52,418 bases of DNA from Desulfopila aestuarii DSM 18488 (lineage in GTDB: Bacteria; Desulfobacterota; Desulfobulbia; Desulfobulbales; Desulfocapsaceae). The stretch is from assembly GCA_945863875.1 (NCBI GenBank), contig CAMBBS010000032.1, forward strand, positions 1-52,418, written 5' to 3'. Every line of letters begins with the position of its first letter. The first letter of the stretch is position 1. Both the position numbers and the translations under genes were made by a program. Of the stretch, positions 24,039 through 52,418 are shown piece by piece. The notes under the pieces are model-generated. The model saw nothing but the letters and a program-made list of their open reading frames with translations, was not told the origin of the DNA and did no database searches.

Positions 24039-24127
24039 TAGTATTTGCCCACTATTTTACCGCTATTTAATAAACTTGCGATTATCTGTGGATTAAGTAA
24101 TGTATAAGCCAATTTGATATAGAAAAA

Positions 24128-24140
24128 ATCCCCAGGGGAT
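24128..24140. promoter_or_regulatory. palindrome upstream of the transporter operon
   Basis: ATCCCC-A-GGGGAT is a perfect 6+1+6 palindrome in the 210-bp gap between the LuxR-type regulator and livG, about 110 bp before the livG ATG. It could be a regulator site; binding by the adjacent regulator is a guess. Confidence 0.3.
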
Positions 24141-24248
24141 ACGGGGCGTTAGAAAAGCGTTGTTGCGCAGGTACAAGACAGCAATTTCTTGGGCACGCCT
24201 AGTTCCGTGTCGAGCGCACCGGCTAGAACCCGCGATTTGGAGAAATCT

Positions 24249-25010: not shown

Positions 25011-25016
25011 TTGCGT

Positions 25017-26942
25017 ATGGAAAATCAAGACCATCTGGTAAAGCACACCATTCCGCAACTTCTGCGCTGGCGGGTGAAGGCGACTGGCAAGAAGGTTGCT
25101 TTACGGGAAAAGGATTTCGGCTGCTGGATCAGCTATACCTGGGATGAGTACTATGCTTTTGTGCGTAAGGTCGGCCTTGGCCTGCTCAAGATCGGTTTTG
25201 CCAAGGGGGATAAGCTTGCCATCATCAGCGATAATATTCCGGAAACGCTGTACATGGCCATCGGCGCGCAGGCCGTAGGCGGTATTTCTGCAGCCATCTA
25301 TCAAACCAGCCTGCCGGATGAGATCGGCGGGATCCTTGAATATCTCAATGTCGGCATTGTCTTCTGCAGCGATCAGGAGCAGGTCGATAAAGTAGCCGAG
25401 GTGCGGGACAGGATTCCCGGCGTGAAAAAAGTCATCTATGAGGATCCCCGGGGCATGCGCGGCTACCAGGCCGATGACTGGTTTATGTCCATTGAAGAGC
25501 TGTATGTCCTCGGTGAAGAAACACATGACAAGGTTCCGGAGCTGTTCAACAACCTGGTCGACGAAGGCAAACCCGACGATGTCTGCCATCTGTGTCTGAC
25601 CTCCGGCACCACCGGGCTGCCGAAAGGCGCCATGCTCACCCATCGAAATTATATCAACATGGGACTGCAGATCACCAAGGTCGATCCCCTGGAAGAGACC
25701 GATGAATATCTGTCGTTTCTGCCTTTTGCCTGGATCGGCGAGCAGATGAACTCTTTCGGCGTGGCCATGGCCACCGGCATCGCCGTCAATTTTCCGGAGT
25801 CGGTGGAAACCAGCATGAGTGATCTCAAGGAAATTGGGCCGCATTTCATGTTCGGTGCGCCCCGCATCTATGAAAATATCCGCTCGCAGATCTGGCTGAA
25901 AATAAACGAATCCTATTGGCTGAACCGTACCTTCTATCATTATTTCATGAAGATAGGCGAAGAGGCGGCGGGCTATCGCATGTCAGGCGGGGTGATGCCC
26001 GGTAAACTGCGTTTTCTCGCCTGGCTCGGCAAGCAGATCATTTTTCGGCCGCTGGTCAATCAGATCGGCCTGCTGCGACTGCGCCGGGCCTATACCGGCG
26101 GTGCGGCCCTTGGCCCGGAACTCTTCACCTTTTATCAGGCCATCGGCGTCAACCTGAAACAGATCTACGGCCAGACGGAGATCGTCGGCATCGCCTATAT
26201 GCACCGGGACGGCGACGTTCGGCCGGACACGGTGGGCAAACCACTGCCGGGGACGGAATGCAAAATTTCCGAGGAAGGAGAGATCCTGTCGCGGTCCGCC
26301 TCGGTGACGCCCGGGTACTATAAACTGCCGGAGAAGACCGCCGAATTGCTTGAAGGCGGCTGGCTCCATTCGGGCGATGCCGGTTATATCGATGAAAACG
26401 GGCACCTGGTGGTCATCGACCGTATTTCCGACGTCATGCATAATAACAATGGCGAGATGTTCAGCCCGATGTTCCTGGAAAACCGCCTGAAGTTCAGTCC
26501 CTACATCAAGGAAGCGGTCATTTTCGGCGATCGGAAGGACTATGTCGCGGCGCTGATCAATGTTGACCCCATTGTCGTCGGCAAATGGGCCGAGGACAGG
26601 GGTATCTCCTTTAGCACCTATATGGATCTTTCTCTGCAGCCGGAGGTTGCCGAGCTGATTAAGGGTGCGGTCGAGTCTATTAATTTTAATAGTGAAAAGC
26701 CGCATTTCAAGATCAGGCGCTTTGCCATCCTCTATAAGCTGCTGGATATGGATGACGGCGAATTGACCAAGACCGGAAAAATCCGCCGCAAATTTGTCCG
26801 GGAAAAATACGATGATCTCTATGAAGCGCTGTACGACGCAGCTATAACAGAGAAAAAGGTGGAGGCCTTTTATCAGTATCAAGATGGCCAAACAACAACG
26901 GTTGATACAACCATCCACTTTTACACAATGGAAGGGGACTGA
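25017..26942 (+). CDS. long-chain-type acyl-CoA synthetase (AMP-forming)
   Basis: A 641-aa member of the FAA1/FadD-like group (COG1022). The ATP loop is LTSGTTGLPKGAMLTH. Adenylate contacts are IYGQTE and SGDAGYIDENGHLVVIDR, and the catalytic lysine is in TKTGKIRRK. It activates a carboxylic acid to its CoA ester; the chain type cannot be read. The gene is inserted between livG and livH, and its TGA shares one base with the livH ATG, so import and activation are probably coupled. I start at the ATG at 25017; a TTG at 25011 is an alternative. Confidence 0.92.
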   Translation: MENQDHLVKHTIPQLLRWRVKATGKKVALREKDFGCWISYTWDEYYAFVRKVGLGLLKIGFAKGDKLAIISDNIPETLYMAIGAQAVGGISAAIYQTSLPDEIGGILEYLNVGIVFCSDQEQVDKVAEVRDRIPGVKKVIYEDPRGMRGYQADDWFMSIEELYVLGEETHDKVPELFNNLVDEGKPDDVCHLCLTSGTTGLPKGAMLTHRNYINMGLQITKVDPLEETDEYLSFLPFAWIGEQMNSFGVAMATGIAVNFPESVETSMSDLKEIGPHFMFGAPRIYENIRSQIWLKINESYWLNRTFYHYFMKIGEEAAGYRMSGGVMPGKLRFLAWLGKQIIFRPLVNQIGLLRLRRAYTGGAALGPELFTFYQAIGVNLKQIYGQTEIVGIAYMHRDGDVRPDTVGKPLPGTECKISEEGEILSRSASVTPGYYKLPEKTAELLEGGWLHSGDAGYIDENGHLVVIDRISDVMHNNNGEMFSPMFLENRLKFSPYIKEAVIFGDRKDYVAALINVDPIVVGKWAEDRGISFSTYMDLSLQPEVAELIKGAVESINFNSEKPHFKIRRFAILYKLLDMDDGELTKTGKIRRKFVREKYDDLYEALYDAAITEKKVEAFYQYQDGQTTTVDTTIHFYTMEGD

Positions 26943-27835
26943 TGAGCTATTTTTTTCAACTGGTAGTCAGTGGTATTGTCGTCGGATCGATTTACGCCCT
27001 GTCCGCCCTCGGCTTTGTGCTCATTTATAAGTCGAGCCGGGTGCTGAATATTGCCCACGGGCAGTTTATTGCTTCCGGGGCTTTTATCACCTATGCCCTG
27101 ACCGTCTGGGCGAACATTCCGATCTATATTTCGTTTCCCGCCAGTATGCTGGCGACCTTTTTTCTGGCGATGAGTGTCGAAAGGGTGTTTCTGCGGCGCT
27201 TGATCGGGGAACCGATTATTTCCGTGATCATGGTCACCATCGGCCTGATGTCCATTCTTGACGGCCTGATCTATCTGACCCCCTTTGGCGCGGAGAATTT
27301 CTCCTTTCCGCCATTCCTGCCGACAACGCCGATTGGTTTTGCCGGGGTGTCGATTTCCTGGACACAGCTGGTCGGGGTTGTCACCACCTTTTCCCTGATT
27401 GCCTGTTTTACCTGGTTCTTTAAAAAATCGACGGTCGGTATCTCCATGCGGGCGGTATCCGACGATCAGCTGGCGGCCATGTCCATCGGCATATCGGTCC
27501 CCCGGGTGTTTGGTCTGGCCTGGGCGATGGCCGGGCTGAGTGCCGCTGCGGCCGGCGGCGTCATCGGCAATATTACCGGGTTGAATTTTGATACCCTGCA
27601 CGCCTTCGGCATTGTCGTCTTTCCGGTGGTCATTCTCGGCGGGCTGGATTCAATTCTCGGCGCGGTTGTCGCGGGGATAATCATGGGGCTGATACAGCAA
27701 TTTGCCAGCGGATATCTTGATGGTCACTGGGGACTGAGCGGTACCGGGGAAGTTATGCCGTATATTGTTCTCCTGGTCATTCTGCTTTTCAAACCCCATG
27801 GCTTATTCGGCATACACGAAATAGAACGGGTATAA
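26942..27835 (+). CDS. livH: branched-chain-type ABC transporter permease (LivH-like)
   Basis: A 297-aa inner-membrane permease with about eight helices. VSGIVVGSIYALSALGFVLI and YKSSRVLNIAHGQFI are the LivH N-terminal block. MRAVSDDQLAAMSIGISVPR is the loop that contacts the ATPase, and GGLDSILGAVVAGIIMGLIQ is the C-terminal family segment. It pairs with the LivM-like permease 3 bp downstream. Confidence 0.94.
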   Translation: MSYFFQLVVSGIVVGSIYALSALGFVLIYKSSRVLNIAHGQFIASGAFITYALTVWANIPIYISFPASMLATFFLAMSVERVFLRRLIGEPIISVIMVTIGLMSILDGLIYLTPFGAENFSFPPFLPTTPIGFAGVSISWTQLVGVVTTFSLIACFTWFFKKSTVGISMRAVSDDQLAAMSIGISVPRVFGLAWAMAGLSAAAAGGVIGNITGLNFDTLHAFGIVVFPVVILGGLDSILGAVVAGIIMGLIQQFASGYLDGHWGLSGTGEVMPYIVLLVILLFKPHGLFGIHEIERV

Positions 27836-38495: not shown

Positions 38496-39038
38496 TTAAA
38501 GCGTTCCTACCCATAGGACGAAACTATTGTTGGCGCTGTTGTTGGTAATTTTCTGACTTTCGGCGTTGGACCAGAAATGAACGGAATCACCTTCCACCAG
38601 GGCGTAGGTGGTGTCGCTGAGCATCAGGTCGACTGAGCCTTTCAAGACACAGAGAAGTTCCTGGCCGTTCTTGATGTTTTTTCGTACCGGGATCGATTTG
38701 CCCGGTTCTATGACGATAATGGAGGAATCAATGACGGTGCGGTTATCCGGCGGAAAAAATCGCCGGGTGACAAAACCGGTATGGGAGAGTTCCATGTCGT
38801 CCCATTCCGATTTCCGGATGAGAATAATCTTTTCCTGCTGACTCACCTGGGTGAGCAGATCCCCGGCGTTTATGCCAAGGGCATTGCAGATGCGGATAAG
38901 GGTATCCACGGAAGGGGAGTTGACATCATTTTCGACCTGACTGAGAAAGCCTTCAGAGATCGAGGCCTTCTCGGCGACGGTTTTCAGCGTCATTTTTTTT
39001 TCTTTCCGGCATCTTCTGATCGATGTGCCAATGTTCAT
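38496..39038 (-). CDS. XRE-type regulator with C-terminal cupin domain
   Basis: A 180-aa regulator. The helix-turn-helix is at about residues 5-60 (IGTSIRRCRKEKKMTLKTVA, ISEGFLSQVEND, PSVDTLIRICNALGI). A cupin fold follows at about 105-178 (SIIVIEPGKSIP, KNGQELLCVLKGSVDLML), the usual effector-binding part. It is the first gene of the leftward acyl-CoA operon. Its promoter region carries two palindromes, so autoregulation is likely. The prophage end lies about 140 bp upstream of its start. Confidence 0.93.
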   Translation of the reverse strand: MNIGTSIRRCRKEKKMTLKTVAEKASISEGFLSQVENDVNSPSVDTLIRICNALGINAGDLLTQVSQQEKIILIRKSEWDDMELSHTGFVTRRFFPPDNRTVIDSSIIVIEPGKSIPVRKNIKNGQELLCVLKGSVDLMLSDTTYALVEGDSVHFWSNAESQKITNNSANNSFVLWVGTL

Positions 39039-39106
39039 ACGACCCCATCTGGTCTGCGTGGTGGAGAAAGTGGAGGAATAACCGCCTTCATTAACATTTG
39101 TTTATT

Positions 39107-39145
39107 GTTAATATTAACCTATACCAAATAAATTTGGGCTGTCAA
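39107..39145 (-). promoter_or_regulatory. promoter and operator-like palindromes of the XRE-cupin gene
   Basis: Leftward, TTGACA (39145-39140), a 16-bp spacer and TATAGG (39123-39118) form a promoter. CCAAAT-AA-ATTTGG (39124-39137) lies in the spacer. GTTAATATTAAC (39107-39118), a perfect 12-bp palindrome, lies next to the -10 box. TTAACA at 39091-39096 is a further half-site-like copy. Confidence 0.65.
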
Positions 39146-39178
39146 TGGGAAAAGTACAGGGGGGAGAACTTAAGGGGG

Positions 39179-39259
39179 TGTTGCGGACCGCGAGGTTTGA
39201 CACCTTTTGACGCGAGGTTTGACACCTAGACACATCTTTTGACGCATGATTTGACACCT
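39179..39259. repeat. prophage terminus with three direct repeats (probable transposase-binding sites)
   Basis: TTTGACACCT occurs at 39196-39205, 39218-39227 and 39250-39259, each preceded by GCGAGG or GCATGA and in two copies by TTTTGAC. The starts are 22 and 32 bp apart, near two and three helical turns. The outer side begins with TG at 39179, as at the ends of Mu-like elements. Mu ends carry several about 22-bp transposase sites arranged in this way. The host flank just outside ends in AAGGGGG. Confidence 0.65.
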
Positions 39260-39385
39260 GGGTTTTGCGTGTTTTAAATAAGCAAAAAAAACGGTCGAAA
39301 TATTGGAAAGAAGTCGTGTTTATTAAACGTCCTTAAATGGTCGTTGAATAATTGGTTAACGAGGTGTTGTCGGCACCTTTTTTTA

Positions 39386-39787
39386 TCAGATGACGGCTCG
39401 GTATATTTTGCTGAATATTGATCTGAGACCGAGGTACATGATGCAGGCGTTGCGTCTGACCTCGTCTCTTTCCAGGTTGGTGAGTTGGGGGGCGTGTTCG
39501 GCGATGTCGAGGATGGATTGCAGCAGCCAGGTGTCTTGTTGTTCTTGTGTGAGTGGTTGGGTGAAGCCCATGTTTTGCCATGTATAGAGGCAGCCGTATA
39601 ATCTAACGCCGCATTTTTCTCCGTAGTCCGACAGGTAGCCCATAATATCGTGGATTTTGCAGTTATTGGTCCACAACGCGGGAAACCTGTCGATACCTTC
39701 CTTCCAGCAGCTGCACCAGCCCTGCAGATTATCAAAATCGATTTCGAGTTCTTTCTCTCCAGTGTATTGTATTGCTGTTGTTCTCAT
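39386..39787 (-). CDS. phage protein of unknown function, last gene before the prophage end
   Basis: A 133-aa protein, begins MRTTAIQYTGEKELEIDFDN, with 4 cysteines (CSC, NNC, KCG, YGC). Its ATG overlaps the stop of the upstream gene (ATGA), which supports it as a real gene of the tail-fibre end. I do not recognise a family. The 126 bp between it and the terminal repeats hold nothing visible. Confidence 0.6.
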   Translation of the reverse strand: MRTTAIQYTGEKELEIDFDNLQGWCSCWKEGIDRFPALWTNNCKIHDIMGYLSDYGEKCGVRLYGCLYTWQNMGFTQPLTQEQQDTWLLQSILDIAEHAPQLTNLERDEVRRNACIMYLGLRSIFSKIYRAVI

Positions 39788-40179
39788 ATCAATGACGCCT
39801 CACTGAACATCTGGTCAATTTGTGCATCGGTAAGGCCAAGTTCCGCCGCTGCTTCGCAGAGCAGTGGCCAATCTCGCCGCCATGAGCTGGCAAACTCAAA
39901 ATCTATACGTGCCTCTTCTCCAGCCTGACCTTCCATCGCGTCGAGATATGCCGTAACAGCGGCTGTCAATCCGTAGCGAGACAGGATGATTTTGCCCTGG
40001 CGGGGGGTTATCTCTTCAGGGATGACAGCAATTGATACTGGAGTTGTGAACGTTTCTCCGTCCCACGCATCGCCAATAGATCCCCCATTTTCAGCGTCGA
40101 TTAGCCATGGAAAATCGACAATAGATCCAACTATAATAGTGTTGACGACAAACCCATTCTCTACCACATGTGCTCTCAT
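39784..40179 (-). CDS. tail fibre-associated protein (assembly/chaperone type)
   Basis: A 131-aa protein that starts MRAHVVENGFVVNTIIVG. The short beta-rich start, a DAWDGETFTTP block and a helical C-terminus (SSWRRDWPLLCEAAAELGLT, DAQIDQMFSEASLI) match the small proteins that follow fibre genes in transposable phages. Its ATG overlaps the fibre stop by 4 bp (shared ATGA). Function inferred from place and pattern. Confidence 0.6.
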   Translation of the reverse strand: MRAHVVENGFVVNTIIVGSIVDFPWLIDAENGGSIGDAWDGETFTTPVSIAVIPEEITPRQGKIILSRYGLTAAVTAYLDAMEGQAGEEARIDFEFASSWRRDWPLLCEAAAELGLTDAQIDQMFSEASLI

Positions 40180-41579
40180 GCAATCCCCCATATGCGGCAC
40201 TCGCCCCTTGCGCCTGGACCTGACTGTGTGCCAGTTTGTGTTCCGCCACCACCACCACCAGGGGCAACGCCAGGCGAACCATTACTAGAAATCGAAGCGG
40301 CACCCCCGTCACCACCGAACGAGGACGATCCAGGAGCCGAAATTAACCCTCCAGATCTGACATAACCGCCACACGCGCCACCATAAATTGAACTACCAGC
40401 GTCGCTTCCATCGAATGCAGAAGAAGCTCCGCCGTAAACCGTCTTGATACCATTGTTGGTTGCTGAAAACCCGTATGGTTCGCCTACTGCCCCATAAATA
40501 ACCGAACCGCCTATGGTATACAAGTTGCCGCCGTAAACGGTAGCGACAGACCCTATACTAGTATTCCCCCCAATTTTTCCAGTATTTGTCGTTGAATAAA
40601 TACCTCCGGCACCAATAGATACAGTCTCTGACGATGCCAGCTCAGACGCCGGAACAGTAAACTCGAAACACCCTCCACCTGCGCCACCTCCGGCTGCAAT
40701 AGATGCGCTTCCTGATCTTCCCCCACTGCTTCCGCCGGACCATAGTAACGCCTTGAAAAAGCTATACCCCGGAGGCTTTACGAATGTTCCTGTAACTGTG
40801 AACGTTTTTGCAAACGGAGACAAAACGACAGATGTGAACCCAACCCCATCACACTGAATGAAACGAGTCTCACCAGGATACATAATAAACGAGCTCAATC
40901 CGTCGATAAGTTCTGACCCAGCAGAATCAATGGTTATATCGCCTGCCCCTGAGTTTTTGTAGTAACACCACCATCCATTGCCAAGCGTAGCAGCTGCCGC
41001 AAGAGCTTGCGTAAATGTTCCGCTGGCGATTTCGATAAACTTGCCAGTATCTGCAGCAACCAACTGGATGTTTGATGTTCGCTCCTCACGGGATATCTTA
41101 GCCGGTGCTATTTGTGGCGGGCCTTGGATACCGGACAGGCTAATGTTCCAGTCGCTGTAAGGCGCAGCCTCACCGTTATAACTGCTCACTCCAATAATAA
41201 GTGTAGAGCCGGAATAACTTGTCACCTGGCCATACATCCAAAGGTCGCTGTCGGACTGCCGTGATATCAAAACAGCCTGTCCTGATTGAAACTGCTTGCC
41301 TGTCTGTGTCGTTAATGTTTTTGAGCCACCGCCAAGGGTGACAGCAGATGTTGAGGTGCCGTTAATCGCCGCTGCATAATTTGCCGCATTATTGGCGCTC
41401 GATGCCGCATCTGCCGCCTTGGTCGTTGCCGTATCGGCAAAGCTGCTTGCTGTATCGATCACCGCCATGGCATCGCCCATCATCGGCAACAGCCATGTCC
41501 TGTGCCCGCCGTTTTGCATGTCGCGGGAGGCGGTACCGTCATCGCTGTACTCGTTGCTGCCAACCGTAATTTTGCTCAT
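40176..41579 (-). CDS. tail fibre protein with glycine-rich tip
   Basis: A 467-aa protein. The N-terminal 70 residues are alanine-rich and helical (SSFADTATTKAADAASSANN). A middle beta-rich region with GSTLIIGVSSYNGEAAPYSD follows. The C-terminal 190 aa are strongly glycine/serine-rich (SGGSSGGRSGSASIAAGGGA, then APGGGGGG near the end), a pattern of polyglycine-II type receptor-binding tips. It should bind the host surface. The upstream neighbour is the 280-aa tail protein gene, whose stop overlaps this ATG. Confidence 0.8.
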   Translation of the reverse strand: MSKITVGSNEYSDDGTASRDMQNGGHRTWLLPMMGDAMAVIDTASSFADTATTKAADAASSANNAANYAAAINGTSTSAVTLGGGSKTLTTQTGKQFQSGQAVLISRQSDSDLWMYGQVTSYSGSTLIIGVSSYNGEAAPYSDWNISLSGIQGPPQIAPAKISREERTSNIQLVAADTGKFIEIASGTFTQALAAAATLGNGWWCYYKNSGAGDITIDSAGSELIDGLSSFIMYPGETRFIQCDGVGFTSVVLSPFAKTFTVTGTFVKPPGYSFFKALLWSGGSSGGRSGSASIAAGGGAGGGCFEFTVPASELASSETVSIGAGGIYSTTNTGKIGGNTSIGSVATVYGGNLYTIGGSVIYGAVGEPYGFSATNNGIKTVYGGASSAFDGSDAGSSIYGGACGGYVRSGGLISAPGSSSFGGDGGAASISSNGSPGVAPGGGGGGTQTGTQSGPGARGECRIWGIA

Positions 41580-42418
41580 AATAGTTCCTTTATTTCAAAC
41601 CCTGTTTTTCGCCGGCCAAACATTGGCAACTCCAGGGGACTCAGTTGCCGCATTCTACCGACAAATCCGGTTAATTGTGAGGCGGCCATGTCGGTTACTT
41701 CCGGCACCCACAAAATTTCTCCGGTAATTCCTTGCCGTCTGATCATCTCATATATTTTTCGAAATTCCAGCTCCTGACCGATCTTATCGAGGAAGAATGT
41801 CGCAACGCGGTAACTCCGTCTCTCGTCAAAAAAATCAGTCCCTCCGGGTGCGGTCTCAATCAGCGACAACGATTCCCACGCATCCGACTTGCCATAAGAA
41901 AAGTTAACGGCCGGGGCTATCCCGGTCCCGGCAAACACCCGGCCCAGCTGGACGTATCCGGCAGGATTAAAAGTGTCTGTAATGGTAATTCTCATATATC
42001 GCGATGATACTTCAGACGGCGCAACGAAAATTGCCGCGAACGGGTGCCCTACATACTCGTCGTCATAATCTCCCACCCACCAGTTATTGTCTTCCCACTC
42101 CAGCAGATCGCTATCGAAAGAGAGCCGCCAAACGGCAAGACCGCCGCTATCGTAGATATCCGATGCCCCGGCTGTTGATCCGAGCGTGAGCCTCCATGTT
42201 GCCGCCTGTGACAGATTGTGATTAACCATCGCAAAGGCCCGGAGGGTTCGGGTGGTTGAAAAATCAAAATCCATGTACGTATCGGCCAGAGATACGCTCC
42301 TGGCAATCTCGGTCATTTGCCGGGTCAGCAGATTTGCCAAGGGTAACGCGGTCAGCCAGGATCCCCCGGACACACTCGCCACGTCTGCTCTGTTCGGCCA
42401 TCCTAGATACAGACCCAT
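41576..42418 (-). CDS. phage tail protein, likely tail tip
   Basis: A 280-aa protein that starts MGLYLGWPNRADVASVSGGS, the first ATG after the upstream stop (1 nt gap). It is beta-rich with many aromatic residues (WEDNNWWVGDYDDEYVG), like tail proteins that carry carbohydrate-binding-type folds. Placed between the tail hub-like protein and the fibre. No family recognised with confidence. Confidence 0.65.
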   Translation of the reverse strand: MGLYLGWPNRADVASVSGGSWLTALPLANLLTRQMTEIARSVSLADTYMDFDFSTTRTLRAFAMVNHNLSQAATWRLTLGSTAGASDIYDSGGLAVWRLSFDSDLLEWEDNNWWVGDYDDEYVGHPFAAIFVAPSEVSSRYMRITITDTFNPAGYVQLGRVFAGTGIAPAVNFSYGKSDAWESLSLIETAPGGTDFFDERRSYRVATFFLDKIGQELEFRKIYEMIRRQGITGEILWVPEVTDMAASQLTGFVGRMRQLSPLELPMFGRRKTGFEIKELL

Positions 42419-42419
42419 A

Positions 42420-43976
42420 TCATCCCCATAGTGTATATTCTGCGCGGAGCAGATCGAAATTGAGTGCAACGGCAACCACTGTAAACAGCTTGCCGTTATT
42501 CCAGCCGAAGCGAGGGTATTTCAGCGTTACCACCGCCCCGATATCGACCGAAACCAATGCGCGCATATCCAGCGGCGAGGTAAGTGTAATCATTTCTCTT
42601 TCCACCCCGTAGAGTGCCATCCGGCGGTCGGCTTCCCCGGCATCCGTGGCGGATGGTTGCCTGTTGCTGGTATACACGTCGATTATTAGTTCGTTCGAAT
42701 TTTGGTGTTTAATTTTAATAGCTGGATCGACGGAAACAACCTGACGTGTCCATTCACCGGTAACCCATGATTTTGCCCACTCTGGATATGATGGCGCCAG
42801 ATTGGACTGAGGTGCATCGTTATGCCCGCATCTGGCAACAACGGACCACACGGGGACACCGGCATCAGACTGGTTATCGAGACGCTGCAATGATTTGATA
42901 TTATGCGGGGTAAACGTCCAAACCGGATCACCAGCAGGACTATCAAAAACACCTACCCTAAATTGTCCGAGCCGGTCAAAACCAAACCACGCGGAAACAG
43001 AATTGGCAATTTTAGCGAGGGCGGTTGTTGCCGACTCTTCGCCGGTCACCAAAACTCCATAGCTGCCGGTGCGTACCGCATTAAGTGTCGTAATATCATC
43101 GGTGCTTATATCTGTTATCCCGGCAGCAGTGGCAATATCGGCTATTATCGTCCCTGCCAAGGTGTGTGATGTGTCTGTCCCGGTAACAGCGTCGGTAACT
43201 TTTAAGGCGCATGTCAATCCGTAGATAGGCACGCCATTGAGCCGAATGAGTCCAAGAGAACTACAAACAGCAAAGTAATTGGCATTAATAGAGGCGGCAG
43301 CCAGGGCATTGTAATCTGCATAATCCGCATCAGGGACATAGGCCATGTTGCCACCATCAACCGCATAATACGGGGTAGCAACATTACCGGATGGCGGAAA
43401 TCCTGCGGCATATATCGATAATGACGAATTTATTATTTTTGGTGCGCAATGCCCTACGCTGCCGAAAATCACAGGCTTTCTAATTCCGGTGGCTTCTCCT
43501 GTTCCTTCTGCTCCTCCGGTCCCCGCAAAAAATCCTGGTGATATCGGTTTGTCTAATTTAACAATATCGTCGGTCAGTTTGATATGCACGGCCCCGGAGG
43601 TCTCGGTCAGCTCGAACCACGGTACAGACATCGTGCAAACAAGCAGGGTGGTAAAATCGTCTGGATATGCCGCGTCTTTTTCGCCTGCCCGGAGGACAAA
43701 GCGGCGACCATCAAAACCGTATCGAATCATACTATCCAGCCCGCCGTCAGCATTGGCCAACAGGCACTCACCAAAGGCGGCCCGCACCGCTCCAAACGTC
43801 CAATTGCCGGAGAAAAGTTCACGGCGAAAGTTCGCCGGTTGCATGAGGCGTGGCTGCACATGGGTGTTTGCCGGGGTATCCGTTGGCGTGGTGGTCCAAC
43901 CAACCGACGAAAAGAGGAACTTTTGCTCCGTTCCTGCAGCGTCAATAGCGACGGTTATTTCTGCGACTATGATCAT
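42420..43976 (-). CDS. phage tail tip/baseplate hub-like protein
   Basis: A 518-aa beta-rich protein directly after the tape measure gene, overlapping it by 4 bp (ATGA). Blocks such as SVDIGAVVTLKYPRFGWNNG, RFGWNNGKLFTVVAVALNFD and FRVGVFDSPAGDPVWTFTPH recall the large tail-tip proteins (with gp27-like hub folds) of transposable siphophages. The position, one gene after the tape measure protein, supports this. Exact role uncertain. Confidence 0.72.
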   Translation of the reverse strand: MIIVAEITVAIDAAGTEQKFLFSSVGWTTTPTDTPANTHVQPRLMQPANFRRELFSGNWTFGAVRAAFGECLLANADGGLDSMIRYGFDGRRFVLRAGEKDAAYPDDFTTLLVCTMSVPWFELTETSGAVHIKLTDDIVKLDKPISPGFFAGTGGAEGTGEATGIRKPVIFGSVGHCAPKIINSSLSIYAAGFPPSGNVATPYYAVDGGNMAYVPDADYADYNALAAASINANYFAVCSSLGLIRLNGVPIYGLTCALKVTDAVTGTDTSHTLAGTIIADIATAAGITDISTDDITTLNAVRTGSYGVLVTGEESATTALAKIANSVSAWFGFDRLGQFRVGVFDSPAGDPVWTFTPHNIKSLQRLDNQSDAGVPVWSVVARCGHNDAPQSNLAPSYPEWAKSWVTGEWTRQVVSVDPAIKIKHQNSNELIIDVYTSNRQPSATDAGEADRRMALYGVEREMITLTSPLDMRALVSVDIGAVVTLKYPRFGWNNGKLFTVVAVALNFDLLRAEYTLWG

Positions 43977-46900
43977 GTTCGAGCCGCCGCGAGGGTTGTT
44001 TTTGATTCAAGCGATGCCAACAAGCGGTAGATTTTATCTAGCCGGTCGGCGATCATGGTGTTTGCGGCACCGAGATATCGCAGCACCGAATCATCTCCGT
44101 TGCCGGACAGCTCTCCGGAGTTAAGTTTGTCGAGGTTGCGCATGCCGGCTCTTGACAATACGCCCTCGCCGGTCTGGGCAATGATCCTGCCCTCGTCGGC
44201 TTTCAACAGGTAGCCGCCGGTGTGGGCGTAATCTCCGTGGTTATCGCTGTCGTTGCCTGGACCAGTTGCCCCAGAGCCGCCCCGGCCCATATCTCCGCCG
44301 CCGTCGGCATTGTCTCCGATGTCGCTACCGTAGCCGCTATTCGCATCGCCTCGGTCATAGCTGGTGGTGATGCCGATTTCCGCCGCCTGGCTACCGAGCC
44401 AGCCTCCAACCAGACTGCCGATCATTGATCCGAGCGGGCCAAGCATCGCTCCGGCAATGGCGCCGAGTGTTCTGCCGATATCCGAGACGTTGTTGTCATC
44501 AATGCCCAGTTCATGTCCGACAACTCCGAGTGTGGTCTTCGTGCCGAAGTTTGCGGCGGTCAGCCCGACGTTGACACCGAAACCCAGCGCGGCATTGATG
44601 CCCATGGACAGCGCCGAAGTAACTGCGGCTTTCGCGGCAGATGAATCCAATCCGCCGAGATCGCCAACCGCGCCGCCTGCATAACCGCGGGCATTGTCGG
44701 CGCCGCCGCCCTCCATGACCGCCCTGTATACTGCGGTGGCCTCGGTCAGCGAAGAGAAATCCGTCGAATCTCCGCCGCCATAGCCAAATGGCGACAGGTT
44801 TTTACTGATTATTGCCGCGTCATCTCGCGGGATAATGGCCTCGCCGACCTGCAGGCGGGCGTCAACCTCGTCTTCCTTGACCCCGGTCGTTCCGTCGTGA
44901 AACAACACTGCCGCCACCGTATCGACGATGACCGATGCGGCCTTGCTGGCGACGATCTTGGCCACCGACTGGACAACTGTCTGCACCATGCCCTGCCACA
45001 GGCCGGTCCACATGCCGCCGATATTTTCAAAGTCGAGTCGGAAATTGTCTGTCAGATCCGCCGTCAACCCATCGACTGAGGTGACATAGTCCTCAAATGT
45101 TTCGACCATCGAGCCCGGCCCGGTGTTGACGGTCGTGGCAACTTTAGCCTGCATGGCGTCAAAGACCGCGTCAACATCGGTGGCCAGGCCGGTCATCGAT
45201 CCCGACGAGCCGGTGACATCGGTATGCAGGCCGGTAAACGAGGAGGCCATGCCGGTATCGCCCAGGGTCAAAGCGGTGTTTGTTTCGAGGGCGCCGAAAT
45301 TGTCGCTCATATCGGCAAACATCCCGGTCATCGATCCCGACGAGCCGGTGACGGCCTGGTGCAATGCGGCGTAGGTCTCGCCGATGGCGGTATTGGTGAC
45401 ACCGTACTCGGTCTGAATTTTGGCCAGCTCCAGCCGCTGAAATTCGGTGATCTGGGCCATTATCTCCTGGTCGCCGGCCGCCTTTACCCGGTAGGCGGCA
45501 ACTTCCTGATCCAGCGCCCAGACCGCATAATCGTATTTGGACAGGGTCTCTTTGTTGATCTTCTCTGTCAGGTCGGTACTGAGTTTGTGCGCATCATCAA
45601 CCGTTTTTTGCCGCGCCTTGGTGACTTTTACGCCGGTCTCCTCGGCTATTTTTACCGCCGCGTCGCCCGTTTGCTGATGCACCGCCTGTATTGTCGCGCC
45701 GGCGGCTGTCTCTTCCTTGGCGGATTTTTGCACCTGGGTGATATAGCCGTCAATGGTGCCGTGCAGCTTGTCGTATTGACCATGCACGTCAATGATCGAT
45801 TGGAAGGATTCCTCCATGACGCCCTGGGTGACGCTGCCCATCTCGTTCATTTTCTGCTGGATGGTATCGAGCGGGTTGATAAATTCCGTGCCCATGAAAT
45901 CAGCCGCCTTTTCCATGGCGATAAAGATACCGTCCAGGGGAAAGAGCAGAGTGCGCAAGCCGCCGAACATCAAGGTAGTTGCCTCGACCATGGCATTAGC
46001 TACCACGGGGATTACCGACTGCAGCATGGCCCATCCGACGTGCAGATATTCAACACCGGTCAACACCAGGTCGAGGCCCTGTAATAATTTGGTGGTTAGT
46101 ATCGTTGCCAGATTATCAACCGACCCTGCATTGTCACGCATGCCGCTATTAATCTTACCGAGCACATCGGCGGCAATGGGCAACAGCTTCTCACCCATGG
46201 CGGCGGTCAGATCCTCGGTGATGGCATGGAAGGATTTCATCTGGTTGGCGTAGCCCTCGCCGGTCCGGGCCATGTCGCCAATGGCAGCCGAGGAGGCCTC
46301 GACCATCAGGGCATAGGCGGCCTGGGCCTTGTCACCGGCGGTCAGTTCGTCCTTTGTCGCTGCCAGACCCATAGTCAGTGCCTGCTGTTCGACGGTCGCG
46401 GCATTGAGCACCACGCCGTATTTCTTCATAGTGTCATACTCGCCGACCAGGGCGGACTGGATATCGTCCATCACCTGAGCGGTGGGCAGATTGTTGAAAG
46501 ACCCGAGATCGGCGGACAGTTTGACAACTTCGCTGGACATCCGCGCCGCCGCATCGGGCATCATGCCCATCGGCACGAGCAGATCCTGCACCGAGGCCAG
46601 GTACTGTTTCGACTCACGGGTTGACATGGCATAACCGGCAACCAACTCCGCCGCCCATGCCTCGGCCTGGCCTTTCTGTCCGGAAAAGACGACGTCAAAC
46701 TTGCTCTGTGTTTCCTGCAGGTTCGACGCCGCCCCGAGACTGGCAACCATCCCGGCGGTCAGGGCTGCCAGTCCGGCAACACCGGCGGCAAAACTCATCT
46801 TTGCCAGATTACCGATAGAGCCGAGGGTTATATCAGTTGACCCCTTCAGCTTGTCGACCTGGCCGCGCATACCAGCAAAGGATTTTTCGCCCTTTTCCCC

Positions 46901-46990
46901 TGCGGTCTTGGCCTCGTTGCCGAGCTCGCGAATCTTGATCGAACCCTTATCATCGACGCTAATGGCTATGTTCAGAGTTGCTGTGTTCAT
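43973..46990 (-). CDS. tail tape measure protein
   Basis: A 1005-aa protein and the largest gene of the phage. The N-terminus has a coiled coil, then small hydrophobic stretches (AAGVAGLAALTAGMVASLGA). Conserved TMP-like text includes SLGSFNNLPTAQVMDDIQSA-type residues (MTSLGSFNNLP is not exact; the actual is SADLGSFNNLPTAQVMDDIQ) and VLNAATVEQQALTMGLAATK. VTGSSGSMTG occurs twice, about 54 residues apart, showing internal repetition. The ATG directly follows the stop of the upstream frame (TAA then ATG). It sets tail length and helps DNA entry. Confidence 0.92.
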   Translation of the reverse strand: MNTATLNIAISVDDKGSIKIRELGNEAKTAGEKGEKSFAGMRGQVDKLKGSTDITLGSIGNLAKMSFAAGVAGLAALTAGMVASLGAASNLQETQSKFDVVFSGQKGQAEAWAAELVAGYAMSTRESKQYLASVQDLLVPMGMMPDAAARMSSEVVKLSADLGSFNNLPTAQVMDDIQSALVGEYDTMKKYGVVLNAATVEQQALTMGLAATKDELTAGDKAQAAYALMVEASSAAIGDMARTGEGYANQMKSFHAITEDLTAAMGEKLLPIAADVLGKINSGMRDNAGSVDNLATILTTKLLQGLDLVLTGVEYLHVGWAMLQSVIPVVANAMVEATTLMFGGLRTLLFPLDGIFIAMEKAADFMGTEFINPLDTIQQKMNEMGSVTQGVMEESFQSIIDVHGQYDKLHGTIDGYITQVQKSAKEETAAGATIQAVHQQTGDAAVKIAEETGVKVTKARQKTVDDAHKLSTDLTEKINKETLSKYDYAVWALDQEVAAYRVKAAGDQEIMAQITEFQRLELAKIQTEYGVTNTAIGETYAALHQAVTGSSGSMTGMFADMSDNFGALETNTALTLGDTGMASSFTGLHTDVTGSSGSMTGLATDVDAVFDAMQAKVATTVNTGPGSMVETFEDYVTSVDGLTADLTDNFRLDFENIGGMWTGLWQGMVQTVVQSVAKIVASKAASVIVDTVAAVLFHDGTTGVKEDEVDARLQVGEAIIPRDDAAIISKNLSPFGYGGGDSTDFSSLTEATAVYRAVMEGGGADNARGYAGGAVGDLGGLDSSAAKAAVTSALSMGINAALGFGVNVGLTAANFGTKTTLGVVGHELGIDDNNVSDIGRTLGAIAGAMLGPLGSMIGSLVGGWLGSQAAEIGITTSYDRGDANSGYGSDIGDNADGGGDMGRGGSGATGPGNDSDNHGDYAHTGGYLLKADEGRIIAQTGEGVLSRAGMRNLDKLNSGELSGNGDDSVLRYLGAANTMIADRLDKIYRLLASLESKTTLAAART

Positions 46991-47335
46991 TTATTGCCTC
47001 TCGTTCCCAGACGCCGCCTGGGAGTGCTGCCTCTCAAACCACTCATTGACCCAGCCAAGGTCAAGCCATTCCTCGACCGACAGCTCATTCGCCCCGAGCG
47101 GATAGCCCGCCTGCTGCAGCCGACGCAGCCGCAGCAGCTTGACGGTGTACGGATGCAGCTCGACATCTTTTTCCTTTGGACAATTGCTGCATACCCATTC
47201 AAGTTCGCCATCGTTCTCCTCACGGCATTTTTCCTGCTCTTTACTGGTACAAAGACCCCGCTGCAGGGCGGCAAGGTCCTTTACTACTCCTTTTCCAGAT
47301 CTTCCACCAGATCGTCCAGGTCGTTCAGATCGGCG
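46991..47335 (-). CDS. -1 frame extension of the tail assembly chaperone
   Basis: A frame of about 98 codons from the GTA at 47287 to the TAA at 46991, open back to 47335. It reads as a coherent protein: VVKDLAALQRGLCTSKEQEK, then CSNCPKEKDVELHPYTVKLL, then SVEEWLDLGWVNEWFERQHS. Four cysteines (C13, C21, C33, C36) could bind zinc. It has no ATG, GTG or TTG in the open part. It overlaps the end of the upstream chaperone by 52 bp in the -1 frame, the place of the lambda G-T type fusion. The likely slip site is G GAA AAG at 47296-47290, just before the TAG. Confidence 0.7.
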   Translation of the reverse strand, partial: RRSERPGRSGGRSGKGVVKDLAALQRGLCTSKEQEKCREENDGELEWVCSNCPKEKDVELHPYTVKLLRLRRLQQAGYPLGANELSVEEWLDLGWVNEWFERQHSQAASGNERQ

Positions 47336-47736
47336 TCAACTTCCTGAAACTCGTCACTGCTCGGGGTGACCGACAGCTCAAAGACGCGGATGGACAGCAT
47401 GGTCAGCACATCCGAGCAGTTGTCCTGCATCCACTCGCGCCAGTCCGGAAAATATGCCGTGCTTTTCTCATCGGAAGAAAAAGGCTTGAACTCGTCGACA
47501 CCGACCGCCCTTTCGAAGTCGCCCTCGCGCAACCCGGTGAGGATCCGCGCGCCGAACTCCACCCGATTGGCCGCGCTGTTGTCGCGAAACTTTTTACCCT
47601 CGCGCACCGAGCGCCGGTTGATATAAGCCTGGCGCTCCTTGGTGGTTGGGGTGCGGTAGTAAAGCCCGAGGGTGGAATTGCTCAGGTTGTCCTGCATGAG
47701 CAGCAGGTTTTTTTTATTTGATTCTCGTCTGGCCAT
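47284..47736 (-). CDS. tail assembly chaperone (G-like)
   Basis: A 150-aa acidic protein that starts MARRESNKKNLLLMQDNLSN and ends in a run of acidic residues (DLNDLDDLVEDLEKE). It lies between the tail tube and the tape measure genes, as tail chaperones do in long-tailed phages. The last codons are CTG GAA AAG GAG TAG, with A-rich slip-prone sequence, and the -1 frame continues into the extension described at 46991. So two products are likely: this one, and a fusion about 100 aa longer. Confidence 0.8.
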   Translation of the reverse strand: MARRESNKKNLLLMQDNLSNSTLGLYYRTPTTKERQAYINRRSVREGKKFRDNSAANRVEFGARILTGLREGDFERAVGVDEFKPFSSDEKSTAYFPDWREWMQDNCSDVLTMLSIRVFELSVTPSSDEFQEVDADLNDLDDLVEDLEKE

Positions 47737-47774
47737 GTTTTTTATTTATCCTTTAATGGTGGTTTAATTCCGGT

Positions 47775-49052
47775 TTATCCGACGTACCCAGCCCACAAAT
47801 TTTTCACCCGGACAATAACCGAGCCATAGGTCGAGTCCTCCAACACGACGAAATCGCCGGACTCAGCCAACTTTTTGTCACTGACCGAAATAGGCGCGGA
47901 GAGCAGACCGAGTTTTGGATAGATGATCTCCACCTGGTAGTTGTGGCCGGTATCGAACTCGGAGCCGAGGCACTTGATATAGCAGCCCAGCTGGTCGTTA
48001 TCCTTGATATGCTGCTGGAAGATGAAGTCGCGAAAACTCCGGTCAACTTTGATGGTCTGCTTGCGGCCGCCACGTTCGTGCATCGACGCATAAGACCCGC
48101 CGCCACCGGGCACGAAGGAAACCTTGCTGTTGTTCGATAGCGAGCACTGGATGTTGCGCAGCTCGGCGCCCATGGCCTTGCCGCCGACGAAGGCGGTACC
48201 GTTCCAGGCGCCGCCGAGGTTAAAACTCATCTCAGCCACCCGCAGCGGACTTTCGACAACCCGGGCCGGGAAGACAAAGTCCGCCGATTCAACCGGGGCA
48301 TACAAAATCTTATAGTTGATCGCGGTGGCCACGGCGCTCGGGGCAACGATGGTGATCGCCGCCGGAGTGGCGGCAGACACAGCAGTAAATGTCACATCGG
48401 TCCAACTTCCGGCAGTCACCTCGGCGCGGATCCGGTGGATGGAGTCCATCCGCTCGTCCGCCGTCGCACCCTGTACGCCGTTGGCATCAAGCAGCAGACT
48501 GACGGAGGTGCCGGCAGAAGAAACCGTCTCCTCAATAATACTGTCCTCATGCTTGCCGGTGCCTTTCAGGGTGCCGGAGATCTTCACCCAGTCGTCCATG
48601 GCGAAGGTAGCGTTGACCTGGTCGACGAACATCGACGCAAAACGCCGTTTCAGCACCGTCTCGCCCATGCGGGTGAGCATCGACATGCTCGGCAGTTCGC
48701 GGGCGGTATCCAGCCCACCGACCATAGGGGTGATGGTATGCAGATAGCCGGATCCGGCGGCAACCGTGGTCACATTACCGAGACCGAAGCCGTACAGGTA
48801 GGCAAAGTGCTGCGGCTGCGCCCGGTTATGGTTGCGGGTAGTCTCGGCCATATAGCCGTTGTCGTAGACCTGGTCCGGCTCTTCCTTGCCGTTGGCCTCG
48901 TCGCTGTTGTCCTCCCGACGCGGCGACAGGTTGATCATGTCGCCCATGTCGGAGAGCAGCGACAGATCGACCGCGGCAAAGGCATTGATCGCGCTTTCAC
49001 CGGCGGTCGCCGAGATGGCGGTCAGATTATGGGTTGCGCTATAACTTCTCAT
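47775..49052 (-). CDS. major tail tube protein
   Basis: A 425-aa protein. Serine/alanine/threonine-rich beta strands, a small loop-rich middle and a C-terminal KQTIKVDRSFRDFIFQQHIK block fit tail tube proteins with an extra domain. It precedes the tail chaperone, the usual place of the tube gene. The ATG overlaps the stop of the small upstream gene (ATGA). Confidence 0.78.
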   Translation of the reverse strand: MRSYSATHNLTAISATAGESAINAFAAVDLSLLSDMGDMINLSPRREDNSDEANGKEEPDQVYDNGYMAETTRNHNRAQPQHFAYLYGFGLGNVTTVAAGSGYLHTITPMVGGLDTARELPSMSMLTRMGETVLKRRFASMFVDQVNATFAMDDWVKISGTLKGTGKHEDSIIEETVSSAGTSVSLLLDANGVQGATADERMDSIHRIRAEVTAGSWTDVTFTAVSAATPAAITIVAPSAVATAINYKILYAPVESADFVFPARVVESPLRVAEMSFNLGGAWNGTAFVGGKAMGAELRNIQCSLSNNSKVSFVPGGGGSYASMHERGGRKQTIKVDRSFRDFIFQQHIKDNDQLGCYIKCLGSEFDTGHNYQVEIIYPKLGLLSAPISVSDKKLAESGDFVVLEDSTYGSVIVRVKNLWAGYVG

Positions 49053-49273: not shown

Positions 49274-49717
49274 CTACTCGGTTTTTTGATATTGCAGACC
49301 CAGCTCCTTGCGCTGGTACATTTCTTGTTTGTCGCTGAGATAAAACAACGACTCGGGGTCCTCGGTGACCCGAGCCTCTTCCATGCCGGTGATCCCGAGG
49401 AGATTATTGTTCAGGAGAGCGATGAGCTGCTTATTCATGGCTAAAATACCGATTTGCCCGGTAGGATTGCCGCCGACGATAGCCGCCTCCTTGTTGGTCA
49501 GTTTGACAAAGACTACCAGCCGCACCGCCATGGTGTATTCCATGGCGCCGCCGGCAAGATATTTATGGATAACCTTGCCGTCCTTGATGCCAACGCAGGG
49601 CAGCATGACACCATGGGGACGAAAGACCAGGCTGGGGGTGATATAGATATCTCCCGCCCGTACTCCGGTCATTTTCGTCTGCAGTTCCTTCTGTATCGCC
49701 AGCAACAATTTATCCAT
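49274..49717 (-). CDS. tail terminator-like protein (position of Mu gp37)
   Basis: A 147-aa protein. The start MDKLLLAIQKELQTKMTGVR and the central strand block AMEYTMAVRLVVFVKLTN are like tail terminator or completion proteins. It lies between the DUF1320 gene and the tail tube genes, the usual place of a tail terminator. Called by position and general pattern. Confidence 0.6.
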   Translation of the reverse strand: MDKLLLAIQKELQTKMTGVRAGDIYITPSLVFRPHGVMLPCVGIKDGKVIHKYLAGGAMEYTMAVRLVVFVKLTNKEAAIVGGNPTGQIGILAMNKQLIALLNNNLLGITGMEEARVTEDPESLFYLSDKQEMYQRKELGLQYQKTE

Positions 49718-49736
49718 CGACTCTTTTCCTTATCGA

Positions 49737-50152
49737 CTAATACTTATCCATCTCTTCCCGTGAAAATATCGCCGGGGCCGCGGACACCTGCAGCGTGCTG
49801 ATATCTCCGGTACCGGCAGGGTCGCCGACCCCTAAAGGAAGATCACCTGTCCCAACCTTGGTCAGATACGCCATGGCCTTGTCGTATTGGGTACTCCAGA
49901 TCGTCGGCACATCGCCCCGGCGAACATACAGCAAATATCCGGCGATCTGGGCACAGAGGATTTTCAAGATCGGCGGTGGACTGGCAAAAGGCAACTTTGC
50001 CGCCAGATAACTGTCGATAGTGATCGACGCGGTTCCAGGGCATTGTCGACCATGGCGCTATTGATCCAGCCGGTATTGTCGTCGTCGGTTAAAGATATCA
50101 AGTCCTGCTGCGGCAGGATGTTTTCCAGGTCGGACTGGGTGGCGTAGCTCAT
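49737..50152 (-). pseudogene. DUF1320 (Mu gp36-like) connector gene with a frameshift
   Basis: The start is MSYATQSDLENILPQQDLIS, then LTDDDNTGWINSAMVDNALE. After about codon 40 the frame changes at about 50030: the reading frame that continues the family pattern (ASITIDSYLAAKLPFA, then PPPILKILCAQIAGYLLYVR) is one base off. A single missing base in GAACCGCGTCG would explain it. The rest runs to a stop at 49737 (FSREEMDKY). Either the gene is broken, or the assembly has an error, or the site is a recoding signal. Its ATG overlaps the stop of the upstream small gene. Confidence 0.75.
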
Positions 50153-50331
50153 TGCCGATTTTCCTCGGCATTACCGCTTTGCTCTTTCTTTTTCATGATA
50201 TCGACGATTCCCTGTGCCTGTAGCCGGGTTGCTTCATCCTCACTGCAAGAAAAAATCTTCCCTGGAGAGATTGTTTTTTTGTTGTACCGTACCACCCGGC
50301 CGGGCCGGACGGTTACTCTGACGTTTGCCAT
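50149..50331 (-). CDS. small phage head protein (gp35-like position)
   Basis: A 60-aa protein that starts MANVRVTVRPGRVVRYNKKT, with AAGG 9 nt before the ATG. It lies between capsid and DUF1320 genes, where transposable phages have a small beta-rich protein that begins in this way. Its TGA overlaps the next ATG. An upstream in-frame ATG at 50385 gives a poorer start. Confidence 0.6.
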   Translation of the reverse strand: MANVRVTVRPGRVVRYNKKTISPGKIFSCSEDEATRLQAQGIVDIMKKKEQSGNAEENRQ

Positions 50332-50388: not shown

Positions 50389-51387
50389 TTACGCGGTAAC
50401 CTGTGCCCAGACCACCACAATACGAGTCAGAACCGGCAGCGGTCGCCCTTCGACCTTGATCCACTGGCCGGAAGGGTCTTGCACATTCCACATTTTTGAG
50501 AAGAAAATGTCCGCCTCCTTGCCCTTGCCGACCCCGCCCGGCGCGTCCAGATCGACCACCGGAGCATACAGCTCGGCGGTGCCGTCGGAGACGATACCAA
50601 CCATGGCAAAGACATTGTCCGGGATCATATCTAGGACGGCGCCCGCATCGTTGACATACGAGCCGTCATACTCTTCAATGTCCACCTGGGCCAGGCGGGC
50701 AATTCTGCCCTCTTCAGCAATTTGTTTGCCGGCCAGGAACATCAGCTTATCGCCGACCTTGACGTTGTTAATCAGTGCGGTCATGGCATCGGTACCGCAA
50801 AAGGCCTGCCAGGACGAAACACCGCCGCCACAGGCCCGGTTGATAAGCTTTTTCCAGCCGCGCAGGTCGGCGATAGGATCGCTGGCCGCATCGGTCCAGA
50901 GATCGGCTCCGGCCAGAACCGGCTTATGGTCGACGGGCAGACCGAAATCAACCAGCTGCTTGCCGTTTTTATCGACGATGACGCCGGACAAGGCCTTCAC
51001 CGCCATAAATTCACGGGTAAGGTCGAAGTTCCGCTTCATATCCGCCTGTTCATCGGCAATCCGTTCTTTCAGCAACTCGGTCTCCGAGGCGGTGCCGAAC
51101 TTACGCATTTCGTTCAGATCGGCGGCGCTGATAAATTCTTTTTCGGCAAACCTGGGCGCCTCGCAGGTCACGTTGATCTTATCCGTTCCACCGCGCACTG
51201 TCGCCTCGGCGGAGACGGCGATGGATTGCATCAGCAGGTTGGAGGGCTTCTTCACATCCCAAGAGAACGGCGTGGTCAACGCTCGTTTCTTGCGCGGGAA
51301 AACTTTATCGAGTACCGGCGTTTTCACCGGCTGCATCTTGTAGACGGCGAGGGTCAATACCCTCGGGGTAAATACGACGTCTGGCAT
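50389..51387 (-). CDS. major capsid protein (phage_cap_E type)
   Basis: A 332-aa protein. PVKTPVLDKVFPRKKRAL, then RFAEKEFISAADLNEMRKFG and AVKALSGVIV...LVDFGLP fit the lambda E-like capsid family (HK97-type fold). ERIADEQADMKRNFDLTREF lies in the expected helix, and the ending includes GRPLPVLTRIVVVWAQVTA. Preceded by the decoration protein gene (60 bp), as in lambda D and E. It forms the icosahedral shell. Confidence 0.88.
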   Translation of the reverse strand: MPDVVFTPRVLTLAVYKMQPVKTPVLDKVFPRKKRALTTPFSWDVKKPSNLLMQSIAVSAEATVRGGTDKINVTCEAPRFAEKEFISAADLNEMRKFGTASETELLKERIADEQADMKRNFDLTREFMAVKALSGVIVDKNGKQLVDFGLPVDHKPVLAGADLWTDAASDPIADLRGWKKLINRACGGGVSSWQAFCGTDAMTALINNVKVGDKLMFLAGKQIAEEGRIARLAQVDIEEYDGSYVNDAGAVLDMIPDNVFAMVGIVSDGTAELYAPVVDLDAPGGVGKGKEADIFFSKMWNVQDPSGQWIKVEGRPLPVLTRIVVVWAQVTA

Positions 51388-51447: not shown

Positions 51448-51783
51448 TTAATTGAAATAAATCCCCCGGGCTTCCAGGGCGGTTTTAGCCGCGGCATCCA
51501 GGCCGGTCATTGACGCCTCGACATAGACCCCGGCAAAGCCGCATACCGCTTCAACGTCGGCAGATGCTGCAGCCGCATCTTCTAGAAGAACGGCCACGGG
51601 GTTCTGGCTGCCGTCGGCACTGCCGGAGGCATAGGCTTTCATCTTGCCGCTGGCGGTAATTCTGCCCAAAATGGTGCCCTTGGTTAAATCAGCTGCCGCA
51701 CCGATAGTTTTCGGCAGCAGTACCGGCCCGAAATTACTGGAGCCGATAAAGGCGGCTATGGTCATTGTGTTTGTCGTTGCCAT
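51448..51783 (-). CDS. head decoration protein (lambda D-like)
   Basis: A 111-aa protein, MATTNTMTIAAFIGSSNFGP onward, with DLTKGTILGRIT, PVAVLLEDAAAAS and a C-terminal EARGIYFN. The small size, the G-T-I-L-G-R strand and the place just before the capsid gene are typical. It stabilises the capsid after expansion. AGGA lies near the start. Confidence 0.85.
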   Translation of the reverse strand: MATTNTMTIAAFIGSSNFGPVLLPKTIGAAADLTKGTILGRITASGKMKAYASGSADGSQNPVAVLLEDAAAASADVEAVCGFAGVYVEASMTGLDAAAKTALEARGIYFN

Positions 51784-52298: not shown

Positions 52299-52418
52299 GG
52301 TTGCCTCCTCTGCGTAATCATAGATTTCAGCCTGCAGGGTATCGCTGAACGCGACATCCTTCAGACCCTTCACTGCCGGAGGCATCGCCCCCAAAAAACC
52401 GACATGCCTGATCGTGCC
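51843..52418 (-). CDS. phage head protease/scaffold, C-terminal part (Mu I-like)
   Basis: The frame is open to the window edge, so the protein starts outside. It enters as GTIRHVGFLGAMPPAVKGLK, the conserved end of the Mu I-type protease domain, and continues as a charged coiled coil (LQQLLEEEKRKREAAEEKAR) with C-terminal segments that resemble scaffolds. Leftward gene order (protease, decoration, capsid) fits Mu- and lambda-like phages. Confidence 0.82.
   Translation of the reverse strand, partial: GTIRHVGFLGAMPPAVKGLKDVAFSDTLQAEIYDYAEEATMPTIEELQQLLEEEKRKREAAEEKARVAEEKASQSEADFAEQQKKARRKDIADFVETMIKDGKILPSWKKAGLVEFMHGLEGDAETIEFSEGKKETRGEWFKGFINSFSAHPLFKEMAKPQGDQDKNKADTEFAEDEKLAEEMAAGHSVGK

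Follow-up and report, generated by a model that had tools for sequence, protein, structure and literature searches.

In the portions of the published literature available to us, transposable phages are described as having TG-CA ends with duplications of 5 or 6 bp, and Pseudomonas saltoviruses as having insertion hotspots (PMC2628397, PMC12724379, PMC5977238, PMC8705779). The accessible part of one of these reports gives a 6-bp target duplication for Pseudomonas phage B3 (PMC8705779), and that of another proposes that short direct repeats at both ends of Burkholderia phage KS10 are transposase sites (PMC2628397). The KS10 sites are 15 nt long, occur twice per end and differ in sequence from those described below, and the available portions of the literature on transposable-phage ends contain no account of the terminus presented here.

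The right end of Mu consists of a TG terminus followed by a repeat that begins about 10 bases in and recurs exactly 22 bp further on, and the Mu late genes run towards this end. The locus described here shares these features, although the site sequence of Mu (CGAWAAAYGCGAA) is unrelated and the prophage, unlike Mu, encodes a capsid E and a lambda D-like decoration protein. RcapMu likewise resembles the locus in its right end (TGTAGCGCG) and in repeats spaced 22 bp, which its record annotates as potentially associated with transposase recognition, but the core of its sites is CTTYCGGACG and tblastn matches only the protease and a short capsid stretch. B3 is similar in its right end (TGTAGCGCG) and in its protease, ORF36, but its right end lacks the 22-bp offset.

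The window, the whole stretch of 52,418 nucleotides from Desulfopila aestuarii DSM 18488 that was analysed, is a complete contig that ends inside a prophage at 52418. With a probability of about 0.93, positions 39179-39259 form the right end, on the late-gene side, of a transposable prophage of the Mu/B3 type, in which R1-R3 are putative sites of the phage's MuA-like DDE transposase. The initial annotation had proposed a Mu-like transposase-binding terminus, and this proposal is supported by the junction between host DNA and a Mu/B3-type late operon, by the termini found in G043, a MuA-bearing genome, and by the 22-bp R1-R2 offset, which is that of Mu, RcapMu and G294. One end of the transposable prophage is now fixed, and a search key has been gained, namely TG followed by 22-bp sites of the form TTTTGACGC-N4-TTTGACACC.

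Repeats and host DNA at the terminus

Three repeats with spacings of 22 and 32 bp behind a TG, as initially annotated, were recovered as exact copies of TTTGACACCT at 39196-39205, 39218-39227 and 39250-39259, with the TG at 39179; the window contains no other exact copy. Allowing up to one mismatch, TTTGACACCT matches the window seven times against 2.56 expected, compared with three exact matches. It is the sole 10-mer of the window with three occurrences on the same strand inside 64 bp, and no such triple occurred in 200 first-order Markov versions of the window. The terminus reads TGTTGCGG, starting with the TG at 39179-39180. The second and third copies are each preceded by a half copy, TTTTGACGC, and the repeat unit is therefore redefined as the 22-bp site TTTTGACGC-N4-TTTGACACC, a pattern that R2 and R3 match without mismatch. 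When the half copies are included, the TTTGACRC cores are spaced 10, 12, 20 and 12 bp apart.

Genes for thiolase and acyl-CoA ligase and the gene of an XRE-type regulator are located on the left side of the repeats. The regulator gene is found in 12 of the 15 genomes of the genus, the present one included (two of the matches are partial, at contig edges). The region upstream of this gene can be aligned with 11 genus relatives, at a mean column identity of 41%, up to approximately position 39152. At none of the 11 loci does the repeat core occur on the same strand in the next 1,500 bp (or in the sequence present), while one locus carries a single core on the opposite strand. Repeats occurring without the prophage had been named at the outset as evidence that would count against a phage end, and at the genus level they are absent, which favours the prophage. 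The end of the host alignment, together with the lack of repeats in the relatives, places the junction between approximately 39152 and 39179. As alignable host DNA stops short of the TG, the exact terminal base is placed by analogy with the ends known from G043, G294, Mu and RcapMu.

With a position 141-221 bp ahead of the start of the regulator gene and core spacings close to whole helical turns, the repeats could also be read as an operator or as regulator-binding repeats serving the host gene. This explanation is extremely unlikely, as the repeats are missing there in all 11 genus relatives that have the regulator, the alignable sequence ends at approximately 39152 and, in G043, the repeats go with phage ends. 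In the preferred reading, that of a transposable prophage, the phage would have inserted itself ahead of a conserved regulator gene of the host, 141 bp from its start codon. By analogy with Mu, a MuA-like DDE transposase would bind R1-R3 and matching inward-facing sites at the left end (TTTGACGC/TTTGACACC), pair the two ends and nick at the terminal TG/CA step, and the ends would be joined to target DNA cut 5-6 bp apart. The candidate target duplication is GGGGG or AGGGGG, beside the TG.

In three relatives (G003, G007 and G001) the regulator gene directly adjoins a row of sensor kinase, ABC, acyl ligase and LivH-like genes. The same row was located in the window by tblastn with the G003 genes at 22455-27835, 11-16 kb away on the regulator's other side, indicating that the cluster has been rearranged. 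Gene order upstream of the regulator varies among the relatives and thus gave no prediction of the host gene that flanks the prophage at its other end.

Features of the terminus, the adjoining host DNA and the prophage in the window, with the right ends of related prophages in G043
Feature	Position	Strand	Basis
Host XRE-type regulator gene, weak cupin match	38496-39038	-	Protein-family match
Host region upstream of the regulator gene	39039-39152	-	Aligns with 11 genus relatives as far as about 39152
GGGGG, five bases beside the TG; candidate half of a target duplication	39174-39178	+	Sequence
TG, probable terminal dinucleotide at the right end of the prophage, with host DNA on its left and prophage DNA on its right	39179-39180	+	Same place relative to the repeats in four G043 ends, G294, Mu and RcapMu
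R1, first 22-bp putative transposase-binding site	39183-39204	+	Sequence, spacing, geometry
R2, second 22-bp putative site, abutting R1	39205-39226	+	Spacing, site pattern, geometry
R3, third 22-bp putative site, 10 bp past R2	39237-39258	+	Spacing, site pattern
Terminator-like hairpin separating the repeats from the last prophage gene	39361-39379	+	Consensus scan only
Last prophage ORFs, tail-end region (39386-39787, 39784-40200, 40176-41579, 41576-42475)	39386-42475	-	ORFs, profile matches
ORFs in tail position (42420-43976, 43973-46990, 46987-47274, 47284-47736, 47775-49052)	42420-49052	-	Position; most without a named match
ORF 49274-49717 (phrog_490, 1.6e-4) and Mu gp36-like head-tail adaptor	49274-50176	-	Profile and protein matches
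Major capsid protein E	50389-51387	-	41% identical to the capsid of the MuA-bearing G434 prophage
Lambda D-like head decoration protein	51448-51783	-	Profile match
Mu I / B3 ORF36-like head maturation protease, C-terminal part, cut at the contig end	51843-52418	-	phrog_976, 1.3e-27
G043 right ends, by locus	L288:400, L289:9550, L290:514, L291:233

Late genes and the missing part of the prophage

The large ORFs between 39386 and the end of the contig run leftward, towards the repeats. Mu/B3-type head genes are present, the late genes point to the right end, and protease, capsid and gp36 are ordered as in the G434 prophage. Among the tail-region ORFs, 40176-41579 has a weak tail-fibre match (phrog_863, tail fiber assembly, 4.7e-6), 41576-42475 matches phrog_8610, of unknown function (1.9e-47), and 43976-46990 shows a weak likeness to the Mu gp42 tape measure (E 0.004). 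The gp36-like gene (49737-50176) is split across two frames near 50040, which may mean that the prophage is defective or may reflect a sequence error. Searches of the viral contigs with two tail-region proteins (299 aa and 518 aa) and with the capsid returned no relatives, and the 299-aa protein had none in the genome contigs collection either. The 299-aa protein was found in one of 144 genomes (the present one) and the 518-aa protein in two of 257 (the present one and a contig-edge match in G233), while the phage collection gave only distant matches.

At E ≤ 1e-12 the capsid was matched in six of 395 genomes of the phylum, the present one included. The capsid of G491 is the nearer, at 52% identity, but its contig spans only 3.2 kb, so that G434 (41%) is the nearest relative with a visible gene order. 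On the long G434 contig the head module is followed by Mu-like G, gp30, portal gp29, gp28, gp27, a GemA-like gene, MuB and MuA, the last identified by PF09299, with PF02914 just under the cut-off. This gene order demonstrates that transposable phages can carry a head module of the type present in the window. The G434 prophage has a right end starting TGTGGCG, and TTTTGCGAYA (up to one mismatch) is matched three times in the 17.5-kb piece, in each case at the right end, with two of the matches 22 bp apart; the count is not exceptional (1.55 expected, and 33 of 200 shuffles reach three), and the point of interest is the clustering at the junction. G294 encodes a MuA 61% identical to that of G434, and has a TG at L248:513, behind which there are a pair of identical sites 22 bp apart and, further on, a methylase gene; the 512 bases ahead of this TG are presumably host DNA. 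The left ends of G294, G328 and G434 could not be resolved.

The far end of the prophage lies outside the contig, and the capsid-E phages of the phage database that match its capsid include the integrase phages NrS-4 and SNW-1, both of which would be compatible with an integrase-type prophage whose attachment site carries arm-type repeats. Such an origin of R1-R3 is nevertheless extremely improbable. The scanned prophage proteins of the window include no integrase and the window contains no tRNA, the nearest capsid relative with a visible gene order is a MuA/MuB prophage (G434), and the terminus matches the ends of Mu-like phages.

Searches of the host's own assembly for MuA with PF09299, PF02914 and the G434 protein, and for the portal family PF06074, gave no match, and PF00665 gave a single weak match, to an IS21-like transposase. 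Among 14 control genomes PF09299, PF02914 and PF06074 matched none and PF00665 matched seven. As PF09299 and PF00665 detect the G043 MuA (60.8 and 40.7 bits, respectively), a MuA similar to that of G043 is probably missing from the assembly. With proteins of Mu, B3, RcapMu and G043 as queries, neither an early region nor a tblastn match to MuB was found in the window and 43 of the 93 own contigs (C51-C93, the first 20 kb of those that are longer).

End geometry and a near-identical terminus in the same family

Fourteen phage ends were scanned for the best self match of a 14-mer at any offset from 8 to 69. The window, G043 C23 and G294 displayed a perfect match (14/14) at offset 22, starting 9-10 bases past the TG, while the right ends of Mu and RcapMu matched at 12 of 14 positions at the same offset, from base 10. 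The other four G043 ends scored 12-13/14 at offset 22, and the G434 end 11/14, between its second and third sites. Offset 22 was absent from the right end of B3 and from the left ends of Mu, B3 and RcapMu. This common geometry supports the view that R1 and R2 are transposase sites in the arrangement of Mu, with a different sequence. The R1-R2 geometry of Mu can thus persist while the site sequence changes completely, which suggests that such geometry can be of use in predicting where prophages end.

The closest match to the terminus itself is in G043, a genome from the same bacterial family as the host of the window. At up to two mismatches the 22-bp site was found in 69 of the 257 genomes of the class, but a backwards control also matched many, and such a search therefore carries much background. 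G043 was singled out because its four matches all lie at a TG and because the four ends are identical to the window at 40, 40, 41 and 41 of 48 bases. Across 5,877,288 positions of the remaining loci retrieved (both strands counted), identity of at least 32/48 was confined to these four ends, to a duplicate locus of one of them and to a fifth end in G043 (37/48). Of the 67 other matching genomes (the present one and G043 set aside), the five inspected by eye (G071, G187, G212, G030 and G077) showed no such terminus, and in the four viral contigs with an exact site the site falls within a long ORF. The initial annotation had also held that the phage has its own end sequence. Consistent with this, blastn of the repeat region against plasmids and phages returned nothing relevant and an exact 18-mer of the repeats is absent from the viral contigs, while the same-family genome G043 carries the terminus.

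The DNA behind the G043 ends is phage-like. Past the C42 end there are unmatched ORFs, a B3-like DNA methylase, two more ORFs and Mu gp47-, gp45- and gp44-like genes, and the C71 end is followed by a methylase fragment. C23, which stops 250 bp past its end, and C12 resemble C42 and C71 at the DNA level (92% over 114 and 93% over 256 bases, respectively). Other G043 contigs encode a MuA (PF02316 6.7e-18, PF09299 1.3e-16, PF00665 2.9e-10), a 228-aa ATPase of the AAA type with an additional match to TniB, head proteins and a sheath protein; we infer that these phage contigs all come from one phage. The G043 prophages share with the window the terminus and two adjacent 22-bp sites, but differ from it in their sheath and baseplate genes, an end-side DNA methylase, the lack of a third full site and insertion beside tRNA genes. 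No blastp match (E 0.01) was found between window ORFs and G043 phage ORFs, and tblastn gave one match of 23 aa, in the protease; the two phages therefore share their ends rather than visible late genes. In G043 C12 (L288:528-6372) the right end is accompanied by a truncated methylase-side piece and then, by eye, by efflux-type genes, and a phage remnant seems to have been left there. A TG end belonging to this family of termini, TGCAACGCG (37/48), begins at the very first base of contig C24 of G043 (L319:1-48). It is not claimed as the left end, as the ORFs behind it look host-like by eye, and it may be a left-end relic or a solo end.

TG ends and repeated transposase sites may also be found in transposons of the IS21 family and of the Tn7/Tn5053-like type, and the host genome contains two IS21-like elements, on C92 (ParB, IstA and IstB) and C82 (IstA 26% identical). 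The terminus could in principle be a solitary end or relic of such a transposon that lies beside the prophage by chance, but this is very unlikely. Neither contig contains an exact TTTGACACC or TTTGACRC or a cluster of near-matches (although C82 is cut inside the element), the near-identical G043 termini adjoin Mu-like phage DNA, and next to the terminus in the window istA and istB are absent and prophage genes adjoin. On C92 (L009) a ParB-like gene lies ahead of istA and istB; C82 (L023) shows, by eye, a ParB-like gene and the start of istB, with an integrase-like gene further upstream.

A motif-only search across all genomes was rejected as too unspecific. Triples of TTTGACACC occur in 106 genome-contig and 35 viral-contig stretches, many of them in tandem repeats by eye among the matches listed, and they are so common that clustered TTTGACACC alone is not diagnostic. 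When eight transposition proteins from Mu, B3, RcapMu and an IS21-like element were compared by tblastn with the 141 loci carrying such triples (approximately 2-15 kb each), no match was obtained at E 1e-4. Clusters of TTTGACACC/TGACACC recur in several Oscillospiraceae and Lachnospiraceae genomes and in viral contigs (for example L088, L090, L099, L200 and L211), where they look like another repeated regulatory or replication site.

Insertions of related phages beside tRNA genes

The right ends on G043 C23, C12, C71 and C42 lie 68, 86, 87 and 92 bp, respectively, downstream of a tRNA 3' end, and that of G434 (L232:312) lies 56 bp downstream of one, such that five of the seven transposable-phage right ends whose flank was seen are 56-92 bp downstream of a tRNA 3' end. 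No tRNA adjoins the window and G294 ends. The 494,478 fetched G043 bases contain 13 tRNA genes, and approximately 0.26% of positions are within 100 bp downstream of one; against this background four of four G043 ends is far from chance, with the reservation that the copies may not be independent events. It is possible that the ends of these relatives reflect the targeting of tRNA or attachment sites, a preference that, if upheld, would be unusual among Mu-like phages. In the available portions of the literature on Mu-like phages no stated preference for tRNA-side insertion was found, and the accessible part of a study of Desulfovibrio piger places 13 of 18 prophages in or beside tRNAs and reports Mu-like proteins in three of four prophage groups (PMC12724379).

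A broader and more doubtful proposal is that these phages belong to a transposable-phage lineage that has a 22-bp transposase site in common and some members of which, helped by a short TniB-like ATPase, target positions just downstream of tRNA genes, the attachment sites of integrase-type elements, with the window copy as an exception or an untargeted relative. If true, Mu-like phages would be hunting the attachment sites of other mobile DNA.

At G043 C23 only the 3' half of the tRNA is present, behind what appears by eye to be an integrase C-terminus, and ARAGORN called no tRNA there. A hairpin precedes the ends by eye, accompanied in several G043 cases by short direct repeats, which we take to resemble integrase arm sites.
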